33,962 nt of DNA, taken from IMG/VR virus record IMGVR_UViG_3300013104_000057, positions 1 to 33,962 of that record. One strand, 5' to 3'. Positions 1,448 to 32,192 of this stretch are shown one piece after another; the stretch's first letter is position 1; each line of letters opens with the position of its first letter. Under the pieces are notes generated by a model that saw only the letters and a list, made by a program, of their open reading frames with translations, ran no database searches and was not told the DNA's origin. The DNA comes from a virus. The translations under genes were made by a program, and so were the position numbers.

Positions 1448-1831
1448 ATGACGCAAAGACTTGTCTCCGTCGGGGACGATTTCAAGCTGCCCACTGCCGT
1501 GAAAGTGGACGAACCGAACCTGCCTGACCGGCTTTCAGCCGCGGCACAAAATGCCACTTATGCCAGCTACGCGAACCTGGCAAAGGCCCCGGATTCGATC
1601 ATCGCCGGGGCCGTGAATGTGGACGGGAACAACCTGGTTACGAGTGCCGCCGTGCTGTGGCCGGACGGTAAGCCGGGGACGCTCACCATCACCAGCCGGG
1701 ACGCGAACAACGCTGTCACCGCGTACAACATCACTTACGGTTCGCCGGTCATCAAGACCTTCACGCAGCCGACCATCACCCGGAACGCTGCCGGCGCGGC
1801 GACCAACGTACCTCAGATTGTGGTGAGCTAA
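1448..1831 (+). CDS. Putative tail fibre protein
   Basis: Encodes 127 aa, start ATG 1448, with GGAG just upstream inside the end of the previous gene. The N-terminal third is helical and may trimerise (LPDRLSAAAQNATYASYANLAK). The rest is Thr/Asn/Val-rich and beta-like (TLTITSRDANNAVTAYNITY, FTQPTITRNAAGAATNVPQIVVS), in the style of phage fibre shafts. It sits directly before the SGNH esterase gene and is separated from it by only 2 bases, so it may be the fibre stalk that carries it. No recognised domain. Confidence 0.5.
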   Translation: MTQRLVSVGDDFKLPTAVKVDEPNLPDRLSAAAQNATYASYANLAKAPDSIIAGAVNVDGNNLVTSAAVLWPDGKPGTLTITSRDANNAVTAYNITYGSPVIKTFTQPTITRNAAGAATNVPQIVVS

Positions 1832-1833
1832 CT

Positions 1834-2985
1834 ATGGGAAGCATCCTTGACGCACCTGTAACCCCGGCCAGCATCGGCGCTGCACGCGCCACCCGTGTCG
1901 CCGCAGCGCCTTCCGACGTGACCTCGCTGGGCCGCTACGAACCGAACCGGCAGGGCTACAACCTGCAACCCGCAGCGACCCGCAGGCTCCGGGCGAAGCT
2001 CGCACAGGCCAAGGCCGGTACCGGGCTCTGCAAGATCGCAGTGGGGGGTAACTCCATCACCGCCGGGCAGTCCGTGAACTTCGGCACCCAGGCATGGCCG
2101 GTAGTCCTCCGTGACTTCCTCGCTGCCAAGGGCTACACGAAGACCGGGACCGGCGTGGTCTATTGCTCCAACTCACAGGCAGGCACGGACAGCCGCTGGG
2201 CGTTCAGTTCGGGCTGGTTCAACTACGTACCGTCCAACATCAAAACCCCGGCCAAGGCGCACAACGCCAACGGTGCCACTGCGACATTCACCAGCGACCA
2301 GACAGGGACTGTGGCGAGCGTCTACTACGCCAACAACTCGGGCACCTTCACCGTCTCTATCGACGGCGGCGCGGCAGTAGCGGTGACGCCTACCGGATCC
2401 AGCACCACCACGGGCGTCTACACTGTCACAGGACTCAGCAACGCCACACACACGGTCGTTGTTACCCTGACCAGCACCAGTTACGTCTACCTGATCGGCG
2501 CGGAGGTGCGCGGCACCACGGGTGTCACCGTCACGGGCTGCGGGATCGGCGGGGCGACCTCCACGGATTTCGTAACGACCAACAACGCGGGCGGACGCAA
2601 GGCCGTCCTCGCCTGGACGCCCGATGTTGTCCTGATCGACCTGCTCACCAACGACGCGAACACCCTGACGAACATCTCGGTGGCAACGTCCAAGGCGAAC
2701 ATCCAGACGCTTATCACGGAATACTCAGCAGCGTCGGACGTGATCCTGGTGGCCAGCATCCCCGGCTATGACAACACGGCCGCAGCGCCGGTCGCCTTCA
2801 CCGCCTACAGGCAGGCGCTCTACGACCTCGCAGACAGCAACAACCTGCCCGTTCTGGACCTGTATGACAGGTGGGGAACCTACGCCAGCGCCAACGCCTT
2901 GGGTCTCATGACGGACAGTCTGCACCCGAACGCGGCAGGGTATGCGGACATCGCCGCCGCGGCAAGCGCGCTACTGGCACCCTAG
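1834..2985 (+). CDS. SGNH/GDSL hydrolase, probable receptor-depolymerising tail protein
   Basis: Encodes 383 aa. SGNH-family blocks are visible: block I GGNSITAG (71-78, nucleophile Ser74), a TND of block III type (272-274) and block V D361-S-L-H364. Residues 145-230 form a Thr/Val/Ser-rich beta insert between blocks I and III, like a carbohydrate-binding module placed inside the fold. The family removes acyl esters, often from polysaccharides. Residues 1-60 lack a signal peptide and may attach to the tail. Lying last in the tail-tip block, it probably deacetylates the host surface glycan during adsorption. The neighbouring leftward gene encodes an O-acyltransferase, the opposite activity. 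An enzyme role is well supported; tail location is inferred. Confidence 0.8.
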   Translation: MGSILDAPVTPASIGAARATRVAAAPSDVTSLGRYEPNRQGYNLQPAATRRLRAKLAQAKAGTGLCKIAVGGNSITAGQSVNFGTQAWPVVLRDFLAAKGYTKTGTGVVYCSNSQAGTDSRWAFSSGWFNYVPSNIKTPAKAHNANGATATFTSDQTGTVASVYYANNSGTFTVSIDGGAAVAVTPTGSSTTTGVYTVTGLSNATHTVVVTLTSTSYVYLIGAEVRGTTGVTVTGCGIGGATSTDFVTTNNAGGRKAVLAWTPDVVLIDLLTNDANTLTNISVATSKANIQTLITEYSAASDVILVASIPGYDNTAAAPVAFTAYRQALYDLADSNNLPVLDLYDRWGTYASANALGLMTDSLHPNAAGYADIAAAASALLAP

Positions 2986-3128
2986 GGGTTGTAAAAGCTG
3001 GCGCACTTGTTGCACATCGGTTCGGAGCCGTCGTGCTGACAAACGATGGCTCCGAACTTGGAGTCGATCTGGTCCCGCTCATAGAAGCGGCGGATACGCT
3101 CAAAGGCCTTGCGAAATGTCGTCCCCAT
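2982..3128 (-). CDS. Possible 48-residue Cys-rich protein
   Basis: A small leftward frame begins 22 bases beyond the acyltransferase stop. It has a basic N-terminal helix (FRKAFERIRRFYERDQ) and a possible metal site: C30, H32, C39, C42 (MCNKC). There is no ribosome site, but TATACT lies 7 bases before the ATG, so a leaderless transcript is possible. A 14-bp hairpin lies inside the frame, which argues that the DNA may only be a terminator between convergent genes. Not recognised; doubtful. Confidence 0.35.
   Translation of the reverse strand: MGTTFRKAFERIRRFYERDQIDSKFGAIVCQHDGSEPMCNKCASFYNP
3021..3056. terminator. Strong hairpin between convergent genes
   Basis: A 14-bp stem (one G-T pair) with an 8-base loop. 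The arms are 3021-3034 (TTCGGAGCC then GTCGT) and 3043-3056. There is no T tract on either strand. Its position between the rightward tail genes and the leftward acyltransferase fits a bidirectional terminator or transcript-end stabiliser. Confidence 0.6.
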
Positions 3129-3149
3129 GCGGCAAGTATAGGCGGCCAG

Positions 3150-5243
3150 TCAGAATCTGTTCCTCAGAGTGGCCTCGATTTGGCCATGGAGAGTTTCCGC
3201 ATAGGTTGCGGTCAGATGGTTTCCATCGCGGTAAACCATCACGCCACCGATAACCGCCGGGCACGATGATTCAGGGCAGATACCATCGGTCAGGTCCATA
3301 ACCGATACACCGGATAGATCCTTTGCTGCGGCAACCTCGGGCGGATTCTCCGGAAGAACGTCCTTTTTGAGGACAGCGCATTTGGTCAACGTCTTTTCGT
3401 TCTTGGCGACACAGTCCGGAACGAGAATCCGCGGGCTCGGAGCGTCGCGGACCGTGATGACCGGAACCTTCGCGTCGATGAACGGCTTCCATGCTGCTCG
3501 GAGGCCGGAAGCGATCAGCTCGTCACTAGCCGCAGGGTCGCCGCCTCGGCCAATCTCCGTCGCTGTGTACTTAGACATTGCGGTTACGAGGGCAGTCGGC
3601 GGCTGAGCCAGAAGCTTCTTGCTCACGGCGTCCCCCCAAGTACGGCACTTCTCAAAAGGCCGTTCATCCAGCAGGATGCTGGTCGTCGTGAACGGGCACT
3701 GCGCCTTGGCGTAGACATCCACGCGCCATTTCTTGTCCACCGCCATCTTCGCGAATCCAGGCGCCAACATCTCTGCGTGCGAATCCCCAACCAATGCCAC
3801 TACCGTCTTGGATTTAGGGTCACCGAACGTGCACGCCACCACCTCGACCGAATCATTGGGTTGGAGGCACGCATTCGGCAGATCCTTCGGCGCGGCGATG
3901 GCCGTTGGTGTGATGCTAGCGAATGAGTCTTTAGGTGTGCCTTGCGACTTGTCCTTGAGCAAGACCTCGGCGCCGATGGCAACCGCATCGGCCGCGGTCC
4001 CGGCGACAGGGGTAGGCGTGAATTTTACGGCTGAGGGCGGGGCGGTCACGGGTGTGGCCACCACGAGCATCACGGCGCAGGCCATACCCGTTAGCGTCAG
4101 GACGATTCCGATACCAATAGCTTCCGCGCTGGTCTTGAGCTTGATATACGCCTGTAGAGGGTTCTCGATGAACCGCTGGCTCAGCCAAGCAGGCAGCACT
4201 GCCAGCGCCACTACCACCAACCCGGCCCACATACCCAGCTCGCCATAGGCAGAAGCGGCGATGATGAGCAGGGGCCAGTGCCAAAGGTAGAGGGAGTACG
4301 ACAGTCCGCCAACGAAAGTCATCGGGCGCAGCCCGAGGACGGCGACAGGCCCGCCGACGCCAGCACTAGTGCCAGCCCAGATCACCGCAGCAGCGCCGAG
4401 TGTGGGTAGTAGAGCCGAGTAACCGGGGAAATGCGTTGCCGCAGTGAAGGTCGCTCCCGCGACGGCAATGGCGACCAGCCCCAGCCATCCAACCACTCGG
4501 GACGCAACGGCGGGGATGTGTGCTCCGCGGGCGACCAGGATCGCCAGCCCGGCCCCGATGGCAAGTTCCCATAGCCGTGTGGTCGTAACGAAGTAAGCCG
4601 CTCCTGGATTTGCCTCTGTGAGGTAGATCGACCACGCCAGTGAAGGCACGAGAACCAGCCCCATGGCAACGAGGAACGCATTGTTGCGGCTCCGGTGGAG
4701 CTTCCCCGCAAGGAACGCTACACCGGCTAGAAGCGCGGGCCAGAAGATATAGAACTGTTCCTCCACCGCGAGGGACCAAAAGTGTTGCACAGGGCTGGGC
4801 GCCGACGCCTTGGCCAGGTAGTCCACCGCGTCGCCCGCGAAGATCCAGTTCACAACGTAAAGGGAGCTCGCTGCGACATCAGTGCCCACCTTGGCCCACT
4901 GAGTTTGCGGAAGGATAAGCCACGCCAGAACTAGGGTGCCGAGCAGCGCTAGCGTTGCGGCTGGCAGGATGCGGGCGACACGTCGGGCGTAGAATCCGCT
5001 GATCGATAGCCGTCCCTTGCGGGACATCTCGCGGACGATGCCGCCAGTGATGAGAAATCCGGAGATCACGAAGAACACGTCCACACCGACGAATCCGCCC
5101 GGCAGCCAGGGCACTCCGGCGTGGTAAAGGACGACCAGCCCAACGGCGACTGCTCGCAGTCCTTGGATGTCGGCGCGGAAAGCCGATTGCTTTCCATCTG
5201 CTGGTGTCGAGGCACGCCTAGTGCCCGTCATGGTTGCTGCCAC
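3150..5243 (-). CDS. Membrane O-acyltransferase with C-terminal SGNH domain (OafA/YrhL type)
   Basis: Encodes 697 aa from a GTG preceded by AGGGGG at 6 bases; an in-frame ATG lies four codons later. Residues 23-370 are the acyltransferase-3 domain: DIQGLRAVAVGLVVLYHAG with conserved His41, then PGGFVGVDVFFVISGFLIT and about ten membrane helices. From about 481 an extracellular SGNH domain follows, with GDSH (486-489) and D673-x-x-H676. Such proteins pass acetyl groups across the membrane onto surface glycans. It is transcribed against the flanking phage genes, with its own promoter and a downstream hairpin, which marks it as a lysogenic-conversion moron. It probably O-acetylates host wall polymer to block re-infection. 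Confidence 0.88.
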   Translation of the reverse strand: MAATMTGTRRASTPADGKQSAFRADIQGLRAVAVGLVVLYHAGVPWLPGGFVGVDVFFVISGFLITGGIVREMSRKGRLSISGFYARRVARILPAATLALLGTLVLAWLILPQTQWAKVGTDVAASSLYVVNWIFAGDAVDYLAKASAPSPVQHFWSLAVEEQFYIFWPALLAGVAFLAGKLHRSRNNAFLVAMGLVLVPSLAWSIYLTEANPGAAYFVTTTRLWELAIGAGLAILVARGAHIPAVASRVVGWLGLVAIAVAGATFTAATHFPGYSALLPTLGAAAVIWAGTSAGVGGPVAVLGLRPMTFVGGLSYSLYLWHWPLLIIAASAYGELGMWAGLVVVALAVLPAWLSQRFIENPLQAYIKLKTSAEAIGIGIVLTLTGMACAVMLVVATPVTAPPSAVKFTPTPVAGTAADAVAIGAEVLLKDKSQGTPKDSFASITPTAIAAPKDLPNACLQPNDSVEVVACTFGDPKSKTVVALVGDSHAEMLAPGFAKMAVDKKWRVDVYAKAQCPFTTTSILLDERPFEKCRTWGDAVSKKLLAQPPTALVTAMSKYTATEIGRGGDPAASDELIASGLRAAWKPFIDAKVPVITVRDAPSPRILVPDCVAKNEKTLTKCAVLKKDVLPENPPEVAAAKDLSGVSVMDLTDGICPESSCPAVIGGVMVYRDGNHLTATYAETLHGQIEATLRNRF

Positions 5244-5271
5244 GGAATTCCCCCTATTGAGACCTGGCGTC

Positions 5272-5299
5272 ATTCTATCTGCCAGATAAGACCGGTTAA
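5272..5299 (-). promoter_or_regulatory. Promoter of the acyltransferase gene
   Basis: On the minus strand TTAACC (5294-5299) and TAGAAT (5272-5277) are spaced by 16 bases. The -10 matches TATAAT at 5 of 6 positions. It lies 29 bases before the GTG start at 5243. A dedicated promoter supports expression from the prophage. Confidence 0.5.
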
Positions 5300-5313
5300 G
5301 TTCCCCATCAGCG

Positions 5314-5350
5314 AAAGCCCCCACTCTCTTTATGAGGGTGGGGGCTTTTT
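5314..5350 (+). terminator. Intrinsic terminator upstream of the first integrase
   Basis: The left arm AAAGCCCCCAC (5314-5324) pairs with GTGGGGGCTTT (5338-5348), with four more inner pairs and a 5-base loop, and ends in five T on the plus strand. It would stop rightward transcripts, including any antisense to the acyltransferase, before they reach the integrase at 5472. Confidence 0.8.
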
Positions 5351-5471
5351 GTCGTACCCGGGGATTAGTCTGAGAGAGCACTACCAAAAACGACGGCGGC
5401 CCCGCCAGTGCTGTAACACCGACAGGGCCTATGCCGTCACCATCCACCTATCAGAGCAACATGGAGACGAC

Positions 5472-6392
5472 GTGCATAACACTACGCTCATTGGCGTACC
5501 CACGACCCGTATTACGACCCCTGCCGAACTCGCGGCGGCCGGCTACCTTGCCCGGTACCGCGGCGGCACCCGCGAGACCTACAAGGTGTCCCTGAAGCTG
5601 CTGTTCAACTGGTGCGCCGGCCTCGGCGTGGACCCGCTGGAGGGCATGCGGCGGCCGGTGCTGGAACTCTTCGCCCGCTACCTCGAGGACGAGCGGCACA
5701 ACTCTCCCGCAACCGTGGCCCACCACCTGTCCATCGTCCGCGGCTTCTACTCCTTCGCGGAGATCGACGGCTACATCGACCGGTCCCCCGCCGCGCACAT
5801 CCGGATGCCCCGCGTCTACCAGGACGAGTCCAAAACCCTGGGGCTGGACCGGATGGAGCTCGGCGCCCTGATCCAGACCGCCCGCGCATCCTCACCGTCC
5901 GACGCTGCCCTCGTGACCCTGATGGGCATGCTCGGCCTCCGCGTATCGGAAGCGTGCAGCGTGAAGATCGAGGACTACCAGGAGATCGAGCGCGGCCACC
6001 GCGTCCTCCGGATCGTAGGCAAGGGCGGGAAGCCGGCCGCCATCCCGCTGCCCGTGCCCGTCCTCCGCGCTCTGGACGCCGCTGCCGGGGAGCGCACGTC
6101 CGGGCCGCTGCTGCTCCGCAACAAGTCCGGCGAGCCGGTAAACCGGAAGTCCGCGGCCCTCACCATCACACGGCTGTGCAAGAAGGCTGGCATCAAGAAG
6201 AACGTCACCCCGCACGGGCTCCGGCACAGCTTCGTTACGGCCGCCCTGGATGCCGGTGTGCCGCTCCGCGATGTGCAGGTGGCCGCCCGGCACTCGGACC
6301 CGCGCATCACGGCCCGCTACGACCGCGCCCGGCACAACCACGACAGGCACGCCTCCCACGTAGTAGCGGCGTTCCTCGCCGGCGCCGCCTGA
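5472..6392 (+). CDS. Tyrosine recombinase, XerC/D-like actinobacterial type (first integrase)
   Basis: Encodes 306 aa. The GTG start at 5472 is set by GGAG five bases upstream. The N-terminal SAM-like core-binding domain (about 24-110, TRETYKVSLKLLFNWC) is followed by the catalytic domain with R157 (GLRVSE), K184 (VGKGGK), H248-G-L-R251, H274 (ARHSD) and nucleophile Y283 (ARYDRAR). All six key residues are present. There is no arm-binding domain. It resembles a widespread actinobacterial recombinase family with a VPLRDVQ-x-A-x-(R/S)H-x-DPR motif, found on plasmids and mobile elements. It ends about 480 bases before the attP-like repeats. It could be the phage integrase, or a resolvase carried in with the acyltransferase; a second integrase follows at 8680. 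Confidence 0.88.
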   Translation: MHNTTLIGVPTTRITTPAELAAAGYLARYRGGTRETYKVSLKLLFNWCAGLGVDPLEGMRRPVLELFARYLEDERHNSPATVAHHLSIVRGFYSFAEIDGYIDRSPAAHIRMPRVYQDESKTLGLDRMELGALIQTARASSPSDAALVTLMGMLGLRVSEACSVKIEDYQEIERGHRVLRIVGKGGKPAAIPLPVPVLRALDAAAGERTSGPLLLRNKSGEPVNRKSAALTITRLCKKAGIKKNVTPHGLRHSFVTAALDAGVPLRDVQVAARHSDPRITARYDRARHNHDRHASHVVAAFLAGAA

Positions 6393-6478
6393 GTTTGATC
6401 ACGAAGCCTACCAGCGAGTAAGTTCTACTCGGCCGGTTCGGGCTTTCCCCCAAGGACCCGAGACGTAGCCAACGGCGG

Positions 6479-6510
6479 CCCTGCACCTATTCCCCCGAAG
6501 TCGTGCAGGG
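6479..6510 (+). terminator. Hairpin after the first integrase
   Basis: CCCTGCAC (6479-6486) and GTGCAGGG (6503-6510) form an 8-bp stem with a 16-base loop, followed by a C/T-rich run. It lies in the 144-base gap between the integrase stop and the next gene. Likely a weak terminator or attenuator; no clear promoter was seen in this gap. Confidence 0.45.
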
Positions 6511-6536
6511 CTGCCCCTCTTGGGTAGGTGGATCCT

Positions 6537-6854
6537 GTGGGACTCTTCGACACACCAATCAAGTTCGTACTGCATGGCGCTGAGTACGAGCATGCTGACC
6601 TGCGGCCGGAGCTGGCCCCTGGGAGCGTGCGCAGGTTCGTCTACGGCGGCGAGCCCAAGGTAATCGCCCAAGTCCCCCTAGTGGCCGGCGGGACCGTTGA
6701 GGTCCACGGGTACGCCACCCACTACTCCCAAGAATGGGTCAGCGTTGAGTGGACTGACGACGTCTTCTCACACTGCACCTGCTGGGTACCGGCGGCCGAC
6801 GTCCGGCGCCCGCGGGAAGAATCCGAGTGGCACGGCCGCTACGTGCAGTTCTGA
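6537..6854 (+). CDS. Hypothetical protein between first integrase and attP
   Basis: Encodes 105 aa from GTG 6537, chosen because AGGTGG lies 5 bases upstream; an in-frame GTG at 6528 is less well placed. The sequence starts GLFDTPIKFVLHGAEYEHADLRPEL and is rich in Val/Glu/Trp beta-like stretches (VISV-type strands such as EWVSVEWTDDVF). It contains HCTCWVPAADVRRP near the C-terminus. No family recognised. Its place between integrase and attachment site is typical for small accessory or cargo genes. Confidence 0.55.
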   Translation: MGLFDTPIKFVLHGAEYEHADLRPELAPGSVRRFVYGGEPKVIAQVPLVAGGTVEVHGYATHYSQEWVSVEWTDDVFSHCTCWVPAADVRRPREESEWHGRYVQF

Positions 6855-6870
6855 CGGGACACGTCTGAAA

Positions 6871-7134
6871 ACGTCCCCCCAATGGGGGGATGCTCAGTCG
6901 AATCACCCCCAATCAAGCGGTTTCTGCGGTTTCGATAATCCGGCGCTGATGGGTCTATTTCCCTTTATTTGCAATGCGAAAGCGCTTCCTGACATGCTCC
7001 TGTTGATGGGGTTCAAATCCCCCCGTCTCCGCCCGCGGATGCCCGGTAACTCAAGGAAGTTGCCGGGCATCCCCCCAAATTCCTCGAAAATCCCCCCACG
7101 ACATGTTAAAGTCGGCTCATTAAATCCCCCGAAT
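6871..7134. other. attP: attP-like region: tRNA 3'-end core with flanking arm-type repeats
   Basis: In this 356-base gene-free gap, 7008-7033 reads as a tRNA 3' end: GGGG, loop TTCAAAT, CCCC, then acceptor CGTCTCC, discriminator G and CC. Acceptor and discriminator suit tRNA-Ser. The rest of the tRNA is absent, as expected for the core a phage shares with attB. Five copies of an ATCCCCC-type motif flank it: 6874-6883, 6902-6913, 7069-7080, 7090-7098 and 7124-7134. Two are left and three right, like integrase arm sites. A 15-bp hairpin (7037-7072) follows the core and could end the rebuilt host tRNA transcript. The host tRNA identity is inferred. Confidence 0.75.
7037..7072. terminator. 15-bp hairpin beside the attP core
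   Basis: GGATGCCCGGTAACT (7037-7051) pairs with 7058-7072 through 15 pairs, one of them G-T, around the loop CAAGGA. There is no T tract. It starts 4 bases after the tRNA-like core. After integration it would sit just 3' of the restored host tRNA and may replace its lost terminator. Confidence 0.6.
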
Positions 7135-7210
7135 CGTTGAGTTCCTGAGGATTTATCCGACGCCGGGGATATCCGCCAAAACCCCCGGACACACTTTCTG
7201 AGGGGGACAG

Positions 7211-7345
7211 ATGGCAAGCACAACCACCGAGCACACCCAGGGCGAAGACTGCGGCAAGTGCCGAGAGGTGCTAGACGAAGAGTTCTGCTACGTCTGCGAG
7301 TACCGCAGTTGCGAACGCGGCGAGGATTGCAAGGACGCCGCATGA
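7211..7345 (+). CDS. 44-residue double zinc-knuckle protein
   Basis: Starts at ATG 7211 after GAGGGGG (spacing 3-4). After a TTTEHTQGE leader it carries CGKC, then FCYVCEYRSCERGEDC: seven cysteines in all, including two C-x-x-C pairs. This suits one or two bound zinc ions. It opens the small-gene operon that runs to the second integrase; its stop overlaps the next start by 4 bases. Upstream, between attP and this gene, is an imperfect CCGGGG/CCCCGG hairpin and no clear promoter. Function unknown; small actinophage zinc proteins of this kind are common. Confidence 0.6.
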   Translation: MASTTTEHTQGEDCGKCREVLDEEFCYVCEYRSCERGEDCKDAA

Positions 7346-7632
7346 GCGCCCGCGATGAACTGACGACGCTGATCCTCGGCAAGACCGCTCCCCGCGCCGC
7401 TGACGCGATACTCGCCGCCGGGTACACCAAGCCACGGCAGATTGAGAACGTGGAAGAGCTCGACGCGCTGCCGGTCAGGAGCGTCATCCTAGACAACTAC
7501 AGCGACACATGCAGGAAGAACCGCTACGGCCGCTGGGAATCCCTCGACGAGCCTGACCAGACGTGGGACGGGCTGGGCATGACAGGCTCACTCCCCGCGG
7601 TTCTCCTGCATGAACCCGAGGCAGACGCGTGA
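7342..7632 (+). CDS. Hypothetical actinophage early protein
   Basis: Encodes 96 aa. ATG 7342 overlaps the previous stop (ATGA). The N-terminal half is helical (RDELTTLILGKTAPRAADAILAAGY). The second half has the pattern LPVRSVILDNYSDTCRKNRYGRWESL and ends LPAVLLHEP, a layout I recognise from small actinophage proteins in which LPVGSV-like and LPAxVLHEP-like motifs bracket a short Trp-containing loop. Function unknown. It is part of the 7211-8693 operon of overlapping genes. Confidence 0.6.
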   Translation: MSARDELTTLILGKTAPRAADAILAAGYTKPRQIENVEELDALPVRSVILDNYSDTCRKNRYGRWESLDEPDQTWDGLGMTGSLPAVLLHEPEADA

Positions 7633-7931
7633 GCGCCCGGGTAGAAGCCGCGGCGAAGGCAATCCACAAGCATGACGCACTTGAGGGCATCACCACTCGC
7701 TACGCCCCGACCGAGATCCATAAGGCTGAGGCCGCCGCCGCCCTCGCCGCAGCCGATGCATTCATGTTCGATAATGCGGCAGTCGAACGGGCAGCCATAA
7801 TTCTTGCGAGCTCCGAGGGATGGGACATGAACTCATTCGCAGATGAGGCTGCACGTAAAGCTTGGCTCGAAAAGCGCTACGCCGGGATCACCCGCGCCAT
7901 GATCGCCGCGCTCAAAGGAGACGAAGCGTGA
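7629..7931 (+). CDS. Hypothetical alpha-helical protein
   Basis: Encodes 100 aa from GTG 7629, which overlaps the preceding stop. It is almost wholly helical and Ala-rich: RVEAAAKAIHKHDALEGI, HKAEAAAALAAADAFMF, and RKAWLEKRYAGITRAMIAAL. No membrane segment, cysteine motif or known domain is seen. Actinophages carry many such short helical proteins of unknown role. The strict GTGA overlap on both sides supports translation. Confidence 0.55.
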   Translation: MSARVEAAAKAIHKHDALEGITTRYAPTEIHKAEAAAALAAADAFMFDNAAVERAAIILASSEGWDMNSFADEAARKAWLEKRYAGITRAMIAALKGDEA

Positions 7932-8107
7932 AGTGCCGCAACTGCGAGCAGCAGCTAGCCGTCGGGGAGTTCGCGTCCCAATCCATCATGTTCGCCGGCA
8001 AGGTACTGACCACCGTTGAGCACCAGGACGGGACAGTGTACTGCGGCCACCCGTTCCAGCCGTGGGACAAACGCACCGCCCAGCTACCCGAAGGACACGA
8101 CAAATGA
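7928..8107 (+). CDS. Small zinc-ribbon protein
   Basis: Encodes 59 aa from GTG 7928, overlapping the previous stop by 4 bases, with AAAGGAG upstream. It begins MKCRNCEQQL and later has TVYCGHPFQPWD, giving C3-x-x-C6 plus C-G-H as possible metal ligands. The middle is beta-like (QSIMFAGKVLTTVEHQDGTVYC). This is the plan of a minimal zinc ribbon; partners are unknown. It precedes the DUF6221 gene with a 4-base overlap. Confidence 0.6.
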   Translation: MKCRNCEQQLAVGEFASQSIMFAGKVLTTVEHQDGTVYCGHPFQPWDKRTAQLPEGHDK

Positions 8108-8430
8108 CCATCACCGACTTCCTACTGGCGCGCATAGCGGAGGATGAGGCCGCGTTGGAGCGCACGGGCCCGTTCCCGCATTCCACCCATGGCCGAGACC
8201 TCGTCGGCACCTACCGGGCGGACTGCCCCGATTGCATCGGCGTCCCGTCCCGGAAGCGCGTCCTGGCTGAGTGCGCGGCGAAGCGGGCGATCGTGAGCGA
8301 ATGCAGACCCGGCACCTTGGACGACCTTGACAGCGGCGAAGATGCCCAGCCCGCGCCCATGTGGGTAGCTCGCGCACTGGCTGCCGTCTATGCCGACCAC
8401 CCGGACTACCGGCAGGAGTGGGCAGTATGA
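8104..8430 (+). CDS. DUF6221 family protein
   Basis: Encodes 108 aa. Features of DUF6221 can be read directly: the opening DFLLARIAEDEAALER, the central RVLAECAAKRAIVSEC (the Lys-Arg helix typical of the family) and the ending VARALAAVYADHPDYRQEW. The family is common in actinobacteria, their prophages and phages; its function is not known. An extra DCPDC pair (about 41-45) may bind metal. It overlaps both neighbours by 4 bases. Confidence 0.8.
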   Translation: MTITDFLLARIAEDEAALERTGPFPHSTHGRDLVGTYRADCPDCIGVPSRKRVLAECAAKRAIVSECRPGTLDDLDSGEDAQPAPMWVARALAAVYADHPDYRQEWAV

Positions 8431-8693
8431 GCTGGACCAGCGAGAACTACCAGAAGGTGCGCGAGCACCTTCGGCCGGAGGACGCTTCAGTTTTTGACCA
8501 GATGCAGAGCAGCGGCATCCGACTGCTCGAAGCCGCAGAGGTCCACGGGCGGTCTACCGCATGGCTCAGCCGGGCGTGGTCACGGGCCTGCGCGGCGGCT
8601 GGCGTCCAAAGGGCTCCAATCCACACACTCAGGCTCGACTATGCGCGGGCTAAGTTCGAGCGCAACAAGGGGGCCACACATGGCGACGATTGA
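8427..8693 (+). CDS. Probable HTH DNA-binding protein
   Basis: Encodes 88 aa, ATG 8427. The segment GIRLLEAAEVHGRSTAWLSRAWSRACAAAGV reads as a helix-turn-helix in which AAEVHGRSTAWLSRAW supplies the turn and recognition helix. The C-terminal tail is basic. Its end overlaps the second integrase start by 14 bases, so the two are probably made together. It might be a directionality factor or a regulator of the integrase; that is inference. Confidence 0.5.
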   Translation: MSWTSENYQKVREHLRPEDASVFDQMQSSGIRLLEAAEVHGRSTAWLSRAWSRACAAAGVQRAPIHTLRLDYARAKFERNKGATHGDD

Positions 8694-9804
8694 GGCGCGG
8701 AAGAACGCATCGGGCCGGGTCACCAGTTACCGCGTGGAGTGGTACGACAAAGGCCAGCGCCATCGGCAAACCCTCCCCACCGAGGTAGCCGCCATCCAGT
8801 GGAAGGCGCTGCTCGAGGCGGTCAAGCACGACACCCAGGCAGCGCAGACGGCCCTGCTCCGTCAGGTATCCCGTTCACCCTCGTTCGAGGAAGTCGCCCA
8901 CGGCCACATCGAACGCCTCATCAACGTACGCGAGTACACGATCAAGCGGTACCGCGGCTACATCAAGAACCACTTCGGCAGCCTCGCACACCTGCCAGTG
9001 GACCAGATCAAAGAAGACGACCTGATTCACTGGATCAAAGCCATGGTCAAAAAGGGTTGCTCCCCGAAGACCATTGCCAACGTCCACGGCTTCATCCACG
9101 CCGCCATGAACTCTGCCGTCCGCCGCGGTCTCCGCACAGACAACCCCTGCAACGGCCGGCTGCTGCCCAAGGACGATGCGACCGAAGACAAAGCAATGTT
9201 CCTCACCATGGAGCAGATGAACGCCATCATCGACCAAGCCGACGAATGGCACCGGCCTATGTGGCGGCTGCTCATCGGATCCGGGCTGAGGCTCGGGGAA
9301 GCAACCGCGCTCCTGGCGTCAGACTTCCAGCTGGACGCCGCGACGCCATCAGTCCGCATCATGAAAGCCTGGCAGGAAATGGAAGACGGCTGGGCAGTCG
9401 GGGCACCCAAGACCAAGAAGGCGCGCCGCACCGTGGCCCTCGCACCATCCACCGTCACCGCCATCCGGGAACGAGTAGAGGCCGCACCCAAAGGCAAGCC
9501 CGTGTTCTCCATCTCCCCCGGGACGACCGTCTACCCACAGCACCGGCAATGGCTCGACGCCTGGTACGCCGCGCTCAAAGCATCGAAGCTCGAACTGGAC
9601 CAGCGGCCCAGGATCCACGACATCAGGCACTCACACGCCTCCATGATGATCGCCGGCGGCATGAACCTATTCGAGCTCGCCAACAGGCTCGGCCACGAGT
9701 CGATCACCACCACCACCAACACATACGGCCACCTCGTACCCGACGCCCACTTCAGGGCGGCCGCCATGGTCGAACAAGCACTGCAAGGCGTCATCGAGAA
9801 CTGA
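8680..9804 (+). CDS. int: Phage tyrosine integrase with arm-binding domain (second integrase)
   Basis: Encodes 374 aa; ATG 8680 follows AAGGGGG. Residues 1-60 form the AP2-like arm-binding domain (TIEARKNASGRVTSYRVEWYDKGQRHRQ), 65-155 the core-binding SAM-like domain, and 175-374 the catalytic domain with R204 (GSGLRLGE), a Lys-rich beta-turn (KTKK, 244-247), H313-D-I-R316, H339 (LGHES) and Y349 (NTYGHL). All catalytic residues are present. This is the classic actinophage integrase plan, and an arm-binding domain fits the repeats flanking the attP-like core 1.6 kb upstream. It is the stronger candidate for phage integration, leaving the first recombinase unexplained. Confidence 0.9.
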   Translation: MATIEARKNASGRVTSYRVEWYDKGQRHRQTLPTEVAAIQWKALLEAVKHDTQAAQTALLRQVSRSPSFEEVAHGHIERLINVREYTIKRYRGYIKNHFGSLAHLPVDQIKEDDLIHWIKAMVKKGCSPKTIANVHGFIHAAMNSAVRRGLRTDNPCNGRLLPKDDATEDKAMFLTMEQMNAIIDQADEWHRPMWRLLIGSGLRLGEATALLASDFQLDAATPSVRIMKAWQEMEDGWAVGAPKTKKARRTVALAPSTVTAIRERVEAAPKGKPVFSISPGTTVYPQHRQWLDAWYAALKASKLELDQRPRIHDIRHSHASMMIAGGMNLFELANRLGHESITTTTNTYGHLVPDAHFRAAAMVEQALQGVIEN

Positions 9805-32099: not shown

Positions 32100-32192
32100 T
32101 GTGACAGAAGACCGGTAAAGTGTCTCAAAGCGGCGTATTCGTCGTCCCGTAAAGCGTTCAACATTCAGTTGGGCGCCTTTTTTATTGCCCAA
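32092..32192 (+). promoter_or_regulatory. Promoter-like and hairpin region after the early operon
   Basis: The gap 32100-32291 holds TTGGCT (32092-32097) and TAAAGT (32116-32121), 18 bases apart, a possible promoter that starts in the preceding gene. Further on TTGGGC/GCCCAA (32169-32192) encloses a T-rich loop (ccttttttatt), which may be a terminator or antiterminator. No other gene is seen before 32292. Confidence 0.4.

Follow-up and report, generated by a model that had tools for sequence, protein, structure and literature searches.

A Xer-like phage recombinase and two dif-like sites that may serve the exchange of tail-enzyme modules among Arthrobacter phages

The stretch of DNA analysed here, hereafter the window, is the whole of IMG/VR virus record IMGVR_UViG_3300013104_000057 (positions 1 to 33,962; 33,962 nucleotides), and it carries two genes for tyrosine recombinases, Int1 (5472..6392, + strand, GTG start at 5472, 306 amino acids) and Int2 (8680..9804, + strand, ATG at 8680, 374 amino acids). 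Its nearest named relatives at the DNA level are Arthrobacter phages such as Isolde, Hestia and Bauer, and judged on sequence the window is an Arthrobacter phage contig of the kind assigned in the literature to cluster AY (Raphaella, BillyTP). Both recombinases are intact with their catalytic residues, as a preliminary description of positions 5472-9804 had stated: Int1 residues R157, K184, H248, R251, H274 and Y283 are invariant among the nine relatives compared, and the R, K, H-x-x-R, H and Y motifs of Int2 are present by eye. The word "unrelated", used there of the pair, was too strong; the two belong to one superfamily, yet are very distant (24% identity over 93 amino acids, E = 0.009, by pairwise BLASTP). 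That a phage normally needs only one such enzyme is correct, although pairs of tyrosine integrases are characteristic of clusters AY and FF and have also been reported in an FA phage, with the function of the second left open (PMC11993905, PMC13097055, PMC9670964), and the same puzzle has been met in Gordonia phages (PMC4982277, PMC9584220). Int1 is present at roughly 80-95% identity in about 32 named phages, and its partner recombinase varies: AY and FA phages have an arm-type enzyme and FF phages an arm-less one, and Maja encodes a serine integrase.

Int1 consists of an N-terminal SAM-like core-binding domain and a catalytic domain (Pfam Phage_integrase, 1.5e-26), and the Pfam domain search of the protein revealed no arm-binding domain, in agreement with its earlier designation as an XerC/D-like recombinase of the simple type. 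The best curated models were XerD and XerC. Assignment as a chromosomal XerC/D was nevertheless rejected, since the scores fell far under the curated cut-offs (117 vs 329.6 and 113 vs 335 bits). The closest solved structures are XerC-like, XerD and XerA; Brujita Gp33 ranks lower. Int1 also has the layout of the IntBrujita subgroup, that is, a simple tyrosine recombinase of an actinobacterial phage with core-binding and catalytic domains, and it shares 27% identity with Brujita Int. An AlphaFold model of Int1 was poor (predicted local distance difference test score, 45.9), hence unusable. In Arthrobacter sp. efr-133-TYG-118 (L006 10001-10919), the Int1 homolog reads as split between two reading frames, one covering residues 1-54 and the other residues 56-306.

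Int2 combines a catalytic domain (3.1e-19) with a Phage_int_M central domain; its N-terminal stretch of about 65 amino acids is, by eye only, of the arm-binding type, and the nearest solved chains are those named "Int protein" (6en0, 6emy). Between the two recombinases, where an attP-like site had been proposed, lies the putative attP core of Int2, GGTTCAAATCCCCCCGTCTCCGC (7010..7032, + strand), which is identical to the 3' end of the host tRNA-Ser(GCT) and is surrounded by C6/G6 arm-like repeats. Exact copies of the core are present in 60 of 61 genomes of the genus Arthrobacter, and in each of the four genomes checked the copy is the 3' terminus of this tRNA; the core also lies upstream of the Int2 homologs in L031, L033, L034, L035 and Bauer. 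As far as the tRNA core and the lysogeny-type domains indicate, Int2 is an ordinary lysogeny integrase that integrates the phage at tRNA-Ser(GCT), and the earlier view that Int2 matches this site while Int1 needs another role is thereby upheld.

A Xer/dif-like site of 28 bp, CTGCCAGATAA-GACCGG-TTAAGTTCCCC (5279..5306, + strand), is situated upstream of Int1, with 11-bp arms on either side of a spacer at 5290-5295; we refer to it as the right site. In an alignment of the DNA preceding Int1, AAGACCGGTTAAGTTCCCC was located exactly where the upstream sequences turn unrelated. A profile of 29 distinct right sites reads AGGGGCccATAAGACCGGTTAAGTTCCCCAAC, with two 11-bp half-sites, a 6-bp spacer and 7/11 dyad matches; the spacer is fixed while the arms vary, with the caveat that the spacer served as the search anchor and most sites were found by patterns containing it. 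Next to the spacer, the arms are similar to the host dif, which reads GATAA-TCTACA-TTATGTAAA in most of the genomes; the spacer itself is a different one. Right sites were found in about 43 named Arthrobacter phages plus many viral contigs, in 50 phage records (each from an Arthrobacter phage and with the site on the + strand; a TTTTGT variant occurs in further ones), in 28 of 32 chosen viral records (most of them picked by the site itself) and in 19 of 150 genomes of the genus. The idea that these are chance occurrences was rejected, as a reversed-pattern control gave 0 matches in the 32 viral records and 0 in the 150 genomes; a looser pattern scan, which gave mostly chance matches, was left out of the counts. 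On plasmids, the only matches were two weak ones, in Paenibacillus and Rhizobium. A role of the site as a leftward promoter of reverse-strand genes was likewise rejected, because the gene on its left runs towards the site in L005 and at QuinnAvery site 2. A second match in the window, at 32108-32126, immediately behind the stop codon of a gene close to the right end, has 3 mismatches and an intact spacer, and is too weak to count as another right site. Apart from the chromosomal dif with its TCTACA spacer, some Arthrobacter genomes (e.g., G046, G040 and G044) contain further sequences of the dif type whose spacers are different and which are possibly on plasmids.

The right site travels with Int1. 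Of 22 loci, nearly all of them located through Int1, 21 have the site no more than 450 bp upstream of that gene, and 31 of the 32 named Int1 phages have it upstream of the gene as well. In prophages it accompanies Int1 at another position, between tape measure/deacetylase and Dit genes.

Junctions between unrelated flanks fall at the spacer. In a table of 21 junctions, each arm follows its own flank, and what is common to all is the spacer plus one base; since the arms are not alike, no more than the spacer, 6-8 bp, remains in common at the right junction. When QuinnAvery site 2 was compared with Zucker, the right arm and its flank were fully shared and the left arm matched at 1/11 positions. 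Where similarity between loci that carry the site begins or ends, it tends to do so at the site itself: of about 112 starts, 42 fall in one 20-base bin, in a count whose pairs are not independent of one another. Small helix-turn-helix (HTH) cassettes stand between two direct copies of the site in QuinnAvery, MidnightRain, Seahorse, BillyTP and contig L212, and the site is empty in Cole, Isolde and Hestia. The insertion is precise: in QuinnAvery a cassette of 1,067 bp is enclosed by two directly repeated sites, where Cole has a single site and lacks the cassette. The right end of the HTH cassette is fixed (CTCCCCTGACA-GACCGG, and CACCCCTGACA-GACCGG in L212), with left and right flanks that differ among carriers; in Auxilium this right end is present and the left site is damaged. 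Contigs L169 and L170 are 99.9% identical to the right of one site and 98.3% identical from another site into the start of a spike gene, and are different in between, which is an instance of an event related to the module exchange proposed below. Gene calls in the unannotated contigs are rough.

The other border lies within a tail gene (1448..1831, + strand), of which the N-terminal part to about 1564 is conserved and the remainder is variable. Homology of the window to Anekin, BillyTP, L029, MidnightRain and Seahorse stops at 1562-1564, inside this gene, and no nucleotide match to relatives was found from there to about 5271-5290, where the homologous flank resumes; the window therefore holds a module of its own (1565..5289) in the slot that other phages fill with the 2.88-kb block described below, comprising the remainder of the hinge gene together with genes for a GDSL esterase and an AT3-SGNH acyltransferase. 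At the border stands the left site, TGCCAC-TTATGCC (1552..1564, + strand), which is in frame and encodes the end of N-ATYA; its spacer, TGCCAC, occupies 1552-1557 and the full site extends over about 1541-1564. The ATYA hinge is written with identical bases, GCCACTTATGCC, in 25 of 27 cases, and the flanking proteins on both sides are mostly unrelated. A longer form of the motif, GGCACT-NNN-TGCCAC-TTATGCC, lies within 5 kb to the left of 16 of the 23 right sites with enough sequence, usually at 1.2-4 kb, and on the right side or the other strand of none of the 23. Scanning viral contigs with the left motif alone gave 38 stretches, and a right site was present within 6 kb in 17 of 32 new loci, in some of them as a weak match. 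A literature search of open-access papers gave no description of the right or left sites, and both (5279-5306 and 1552-1564) lie outside the region that the preliminary description covered. In Bauer (L040 2903-2969), the hinge shows a 54-bp tandem duplication (ATYALKSEVPPTTLDGGN repeated), as if an event at the left site had been imprecise.

An identical module is found in phages of different clusters. A block of 2,877-2,890 bp (about 2.88 kb), encoding a tail esterase, a membrane protein, a lipase and a hypothetical protein, is 100% identical, with 0 mismatches, in most pairs of its carriers, which are Cole and QuinnAvery (FF), Hestia, Isolde, MidnightRain and Bauer (AY) and Bridgette (FA). 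The neighbouring DNA is 85-90% identical or unrelated between carriers. The block is bordered on the right by the GACCGG site and on the left by the ATYA hinge of the tail gene, and it is joined at the right site to at least six different right sides.

In the window, the GDSL-type esterase (1834..2985, + strand; Pfam Lipase_GDSL_2, 5.4e-18) is a probable tail or receptor enzyme, and the AT3 acyltransferase fused to an SGNH domain (3150..5231, − strand; Acyl_transf_3, 3e-29; SGNH, 1.6e-27) is a probable host-surface modifier; the open reading frame of the latter stays open to 5447, and with the ATG at 5231 the 28-bp site is intergenic. Elsewhere, the genes adjoining the right site encode GDSL or carbohydrate esterases, polysaccharide deacetylases and beta-helix spikes, which are likely to be receptor-binding or glycan-cutting tail enzymes, and the reverse-strand genes beside it encode acyl-, acetyl- or glycosyltransferases, which may alter the surface of the lysogen. 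The suggestion that Int1 arrived together with the acyltransferase was not supported, since the junction lies between the two: the acyltransferase belongs to the exchanged part, and Int1 stays while the cargo changes.

We favour, with moderate confidence, the reading that Int1 is a Xer-like recombinase acting on the two dif-like sites that border a swappable module of tail enzymes and surface modifiers, while Int2 serves lysogeny. Among the roles that had been offered for Int1, action on a second site and recombination near the tail genes fit best. Int1 is the natural candidate for the enzyme because the site accompanies it at more than one genomic position and because a bare core site is a fitting target for a simple recombinase. 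In the proposed mechanism, the right site (GACCGG) just upstream of Int1 and the left site (TGCCAC) in frame at the ATYA hinge, alike in orientation and different in spacer, would hold the module in place; as their spacers differ, the two should not recombine with each other. Were a second phage with the same pair of sites present in the cell, one tyrosine-recombinase crossover at each like spacer would swap the whole module, a recombinase-mediated cassette exchange (RMCE), and recombination at the GACCGG site alone would insert a small circular cassette, as with the HTH cassettes. The paired, different spacers at the two module ends agree with such an exchange, the lack of cross-reaction being read from the spacers. 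Whether the phages thus possess a natural RMCE, in which a single recombinase and two heterospecific sites form a common port for receptor-binding and surface-modifying modules across Arthrobacter clusters, appears to us evenly balanced; host range or superinfection might then be affected.

Several observations weigh against this reading. The site, and swaps at it, are also seen where no Int1 is nearby, in about 12 named phages and many contigs; Elesar, Faja, Eileen, EvePickles, TripleJ, Sarge, Pitbull and MrSmee carry the site with one integrase and no Int1, and Int1 is therefore dispensable. The preliminary description had counted such relatives, or a placement of Int1 inside a separate inserted element, as adverse to its account of the two enzymes; the relatives exist, whereas in the window Int1 does not lie inside a bordered inserted element. 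For phages that have the site without Int1, action in trans, loss of Int1 or recombination by the host XerC/XerD (XerCD) must therefore be considered. Conversely, two Int1 loci lack the site, L028 and Tiff81, and in the latter the module is also gone. The Gordonia relatives of Int1 (44-45% identity) have no GACCGG site; there, similarity of the flanks breaks off about 86 bp before the gene. At the left border, 7 of the 23 right sites have no recognisable hinge, the three bases before TGCCAC (AAA, TTC, TAA) follow neither flank cleanly, and protein conservation may explain part of the conservation of the hinge.

The main rival, which we consider unlikely though deserving of attention, is that the host XerCD recombine these sites, as at Acinetobacter pdif, with Int1 a passenger or in another role. 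The half-sites are indeed near dif (ATAA-N6-TTA-GT in the right site and TTATG in the hinge, against the host GATAA-TCTACA-TTATGTAAA), sites and swaps occur in phages without Int1, and PMC7399989 describes the same kind of module for Acinetobacter plasmids. The spacers, however, are unlike that of the host dif, and Int1 accompanies the site at different genomic positions and is itself intact and conserved at 80-95% identity across clusters. Somewhat more doubtful is the explanation that the conserved stretches are linkers kept for another reason (promoter, operator or domain hinge) and that modules are exchanged at these linkers through general or short-homology recombination, whether the phage or the host supplies it. 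It would suit a left border in coding sequence at a domain boundary, the exonuclease and single-stranded DNA-binding genes that the phages encode and the constant direction of the sites relative to the late genes, but it sits poorly with a right junction at which the 6-8 bp spacer alone is shared, with HTH cassettes between two exact direct copies of the spacer and with synonymous positions fixed in the hinge.

A reserve role for Int1 in lysogeny, after the manner of Brujita Int, in which the 28-bp site would be an attP matched to an attB of the host, is improbable. Phage integration by arm-less enzymes of this broad class does occur (Brujita; PMC8138268), and both the 27% identity with Brujita Int and the presence of the site in 19 of 150 genus genomes could be taken in favour of such a role. 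In the lysogen Pseudarthrobacter HLT1-5, however, which contains a related phage, the Int2-like gene is at the edge of the prophage and abuts the transfer-messenger RNA (tmRNA) gene; 36 bp of the tmRNA gene recur at 91.7% identity some 55 kb from there, and about 2 kb past them is another, partial copy. Int1 and the intact site are internal, Int1 lying between tail genes. The changing partners of Int1, including the serine integrase of Maja, and the position of the sites beside phage tail and module genes whose flanks are exchanged between phages argue in the same direction, and Int1 probably does not serve to insert the virus into the host. Integration at tRNA-Arg between the two recombinases of the G114 prophage was tried as an explanation and was not confirmed. 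Resolution of multimers of the circular phage genome by Int1 is highly improbable: the dif-like layout and the Xer-like protein would suit it, but the exchanged flanks, the two-copy cassettes and the paired left site would be left unexplained.

Module exchange by Int1 would resemble several known systems in part. The Acinetobacter pdif (XerC/XerD) modules are likewise gene modules bordered by dif-like 11-6-11 sites and presumed to move by Xer-type recombination, with exchange placed at the spacer here and a dyad that is moderate (7/11); unlike those modules, the present ones have a phage setting, a phage-encoded recombinase beside the site, two different end spacers and a cargo of tail and surface functions. 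Integrons (IntI, attI, attC) also have a tyrosine recombinase next to a gene-capture site, and many genes with a site at the 3' end. However, identification of Int1 as an integron integrase was rejected (53.3 bits against a curated cut-off of 265), attC hairpin arrays are lacking, and the 28-bp site is of the double-strand type. IntBrujita is similar as a simple recombinase without an arm-binding domain from an actinobacterial phage, but the identity is low and Brujita Int integrates its phage, which Int1 appears not to do. In engineered RMCE with lox or FRT variants, a cassette between two heterospecific sites is swapped by double crossover; the proposed system shares the cassette between heterospecific sites and differs in being natural, in frame at one end and between phages. 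Shufflons and tail-fibre inversion systems (Rci, Gin, Cin) use site-specific recombination to change tips or receptor-binding parts, but they invert DNA within one genome, whereas here the exchange is between genomes and all sites have one orientation. Rci is covered in PMC8138268. The favoured reading offers a concrete answer to why AY, FA and FF Arthrobacter phages carry two integrases, and a mechanism for the identical, sharply bordered receptor-binding modules in phages of different clusters; if Int1 is the enzyme, the long-discussed mosaicism of tail modules would in this group reflect site-specific recombination that has evolved, as opposed to recombination at random.

Among the remaining features of the locus, a hairpin with a T run that resembles an intrinsic terminator (5317..5351, + strand), read from the sequence and similar to a hairpin in relatives, lies between the 28-bp site and Int1. 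It is followed by a conserved hairpin in the Int1 leader (5392..5438, + strand), with a consensus fold and both-side changes at 3 pairs; the paired changes were seen in L003, L005, L006, L024 and others. This leader hairpin may regulate the translation or transcription of Int1, and a stretch resembling it also precedes the Gordonia Int1 homologs. A hypothetical protein without family (6528..6854, + strand) has counterparts of similar size at the same place in related phages, and in viral contig L027 Int1 is followed by a gene for a Mom-family DNA-modification protein (4591-5256), another genomic setting. In the Gordonia phages Howe, WinkNick and Adora (L196, L197 and L199), the DNA on the left diverges sharply about 86 bp before the Int1 homolog and the 3.7-5 kb rightward are 96-98% identical; the swapped left genes include regulators, and another site may exist there in place of GACCGG.

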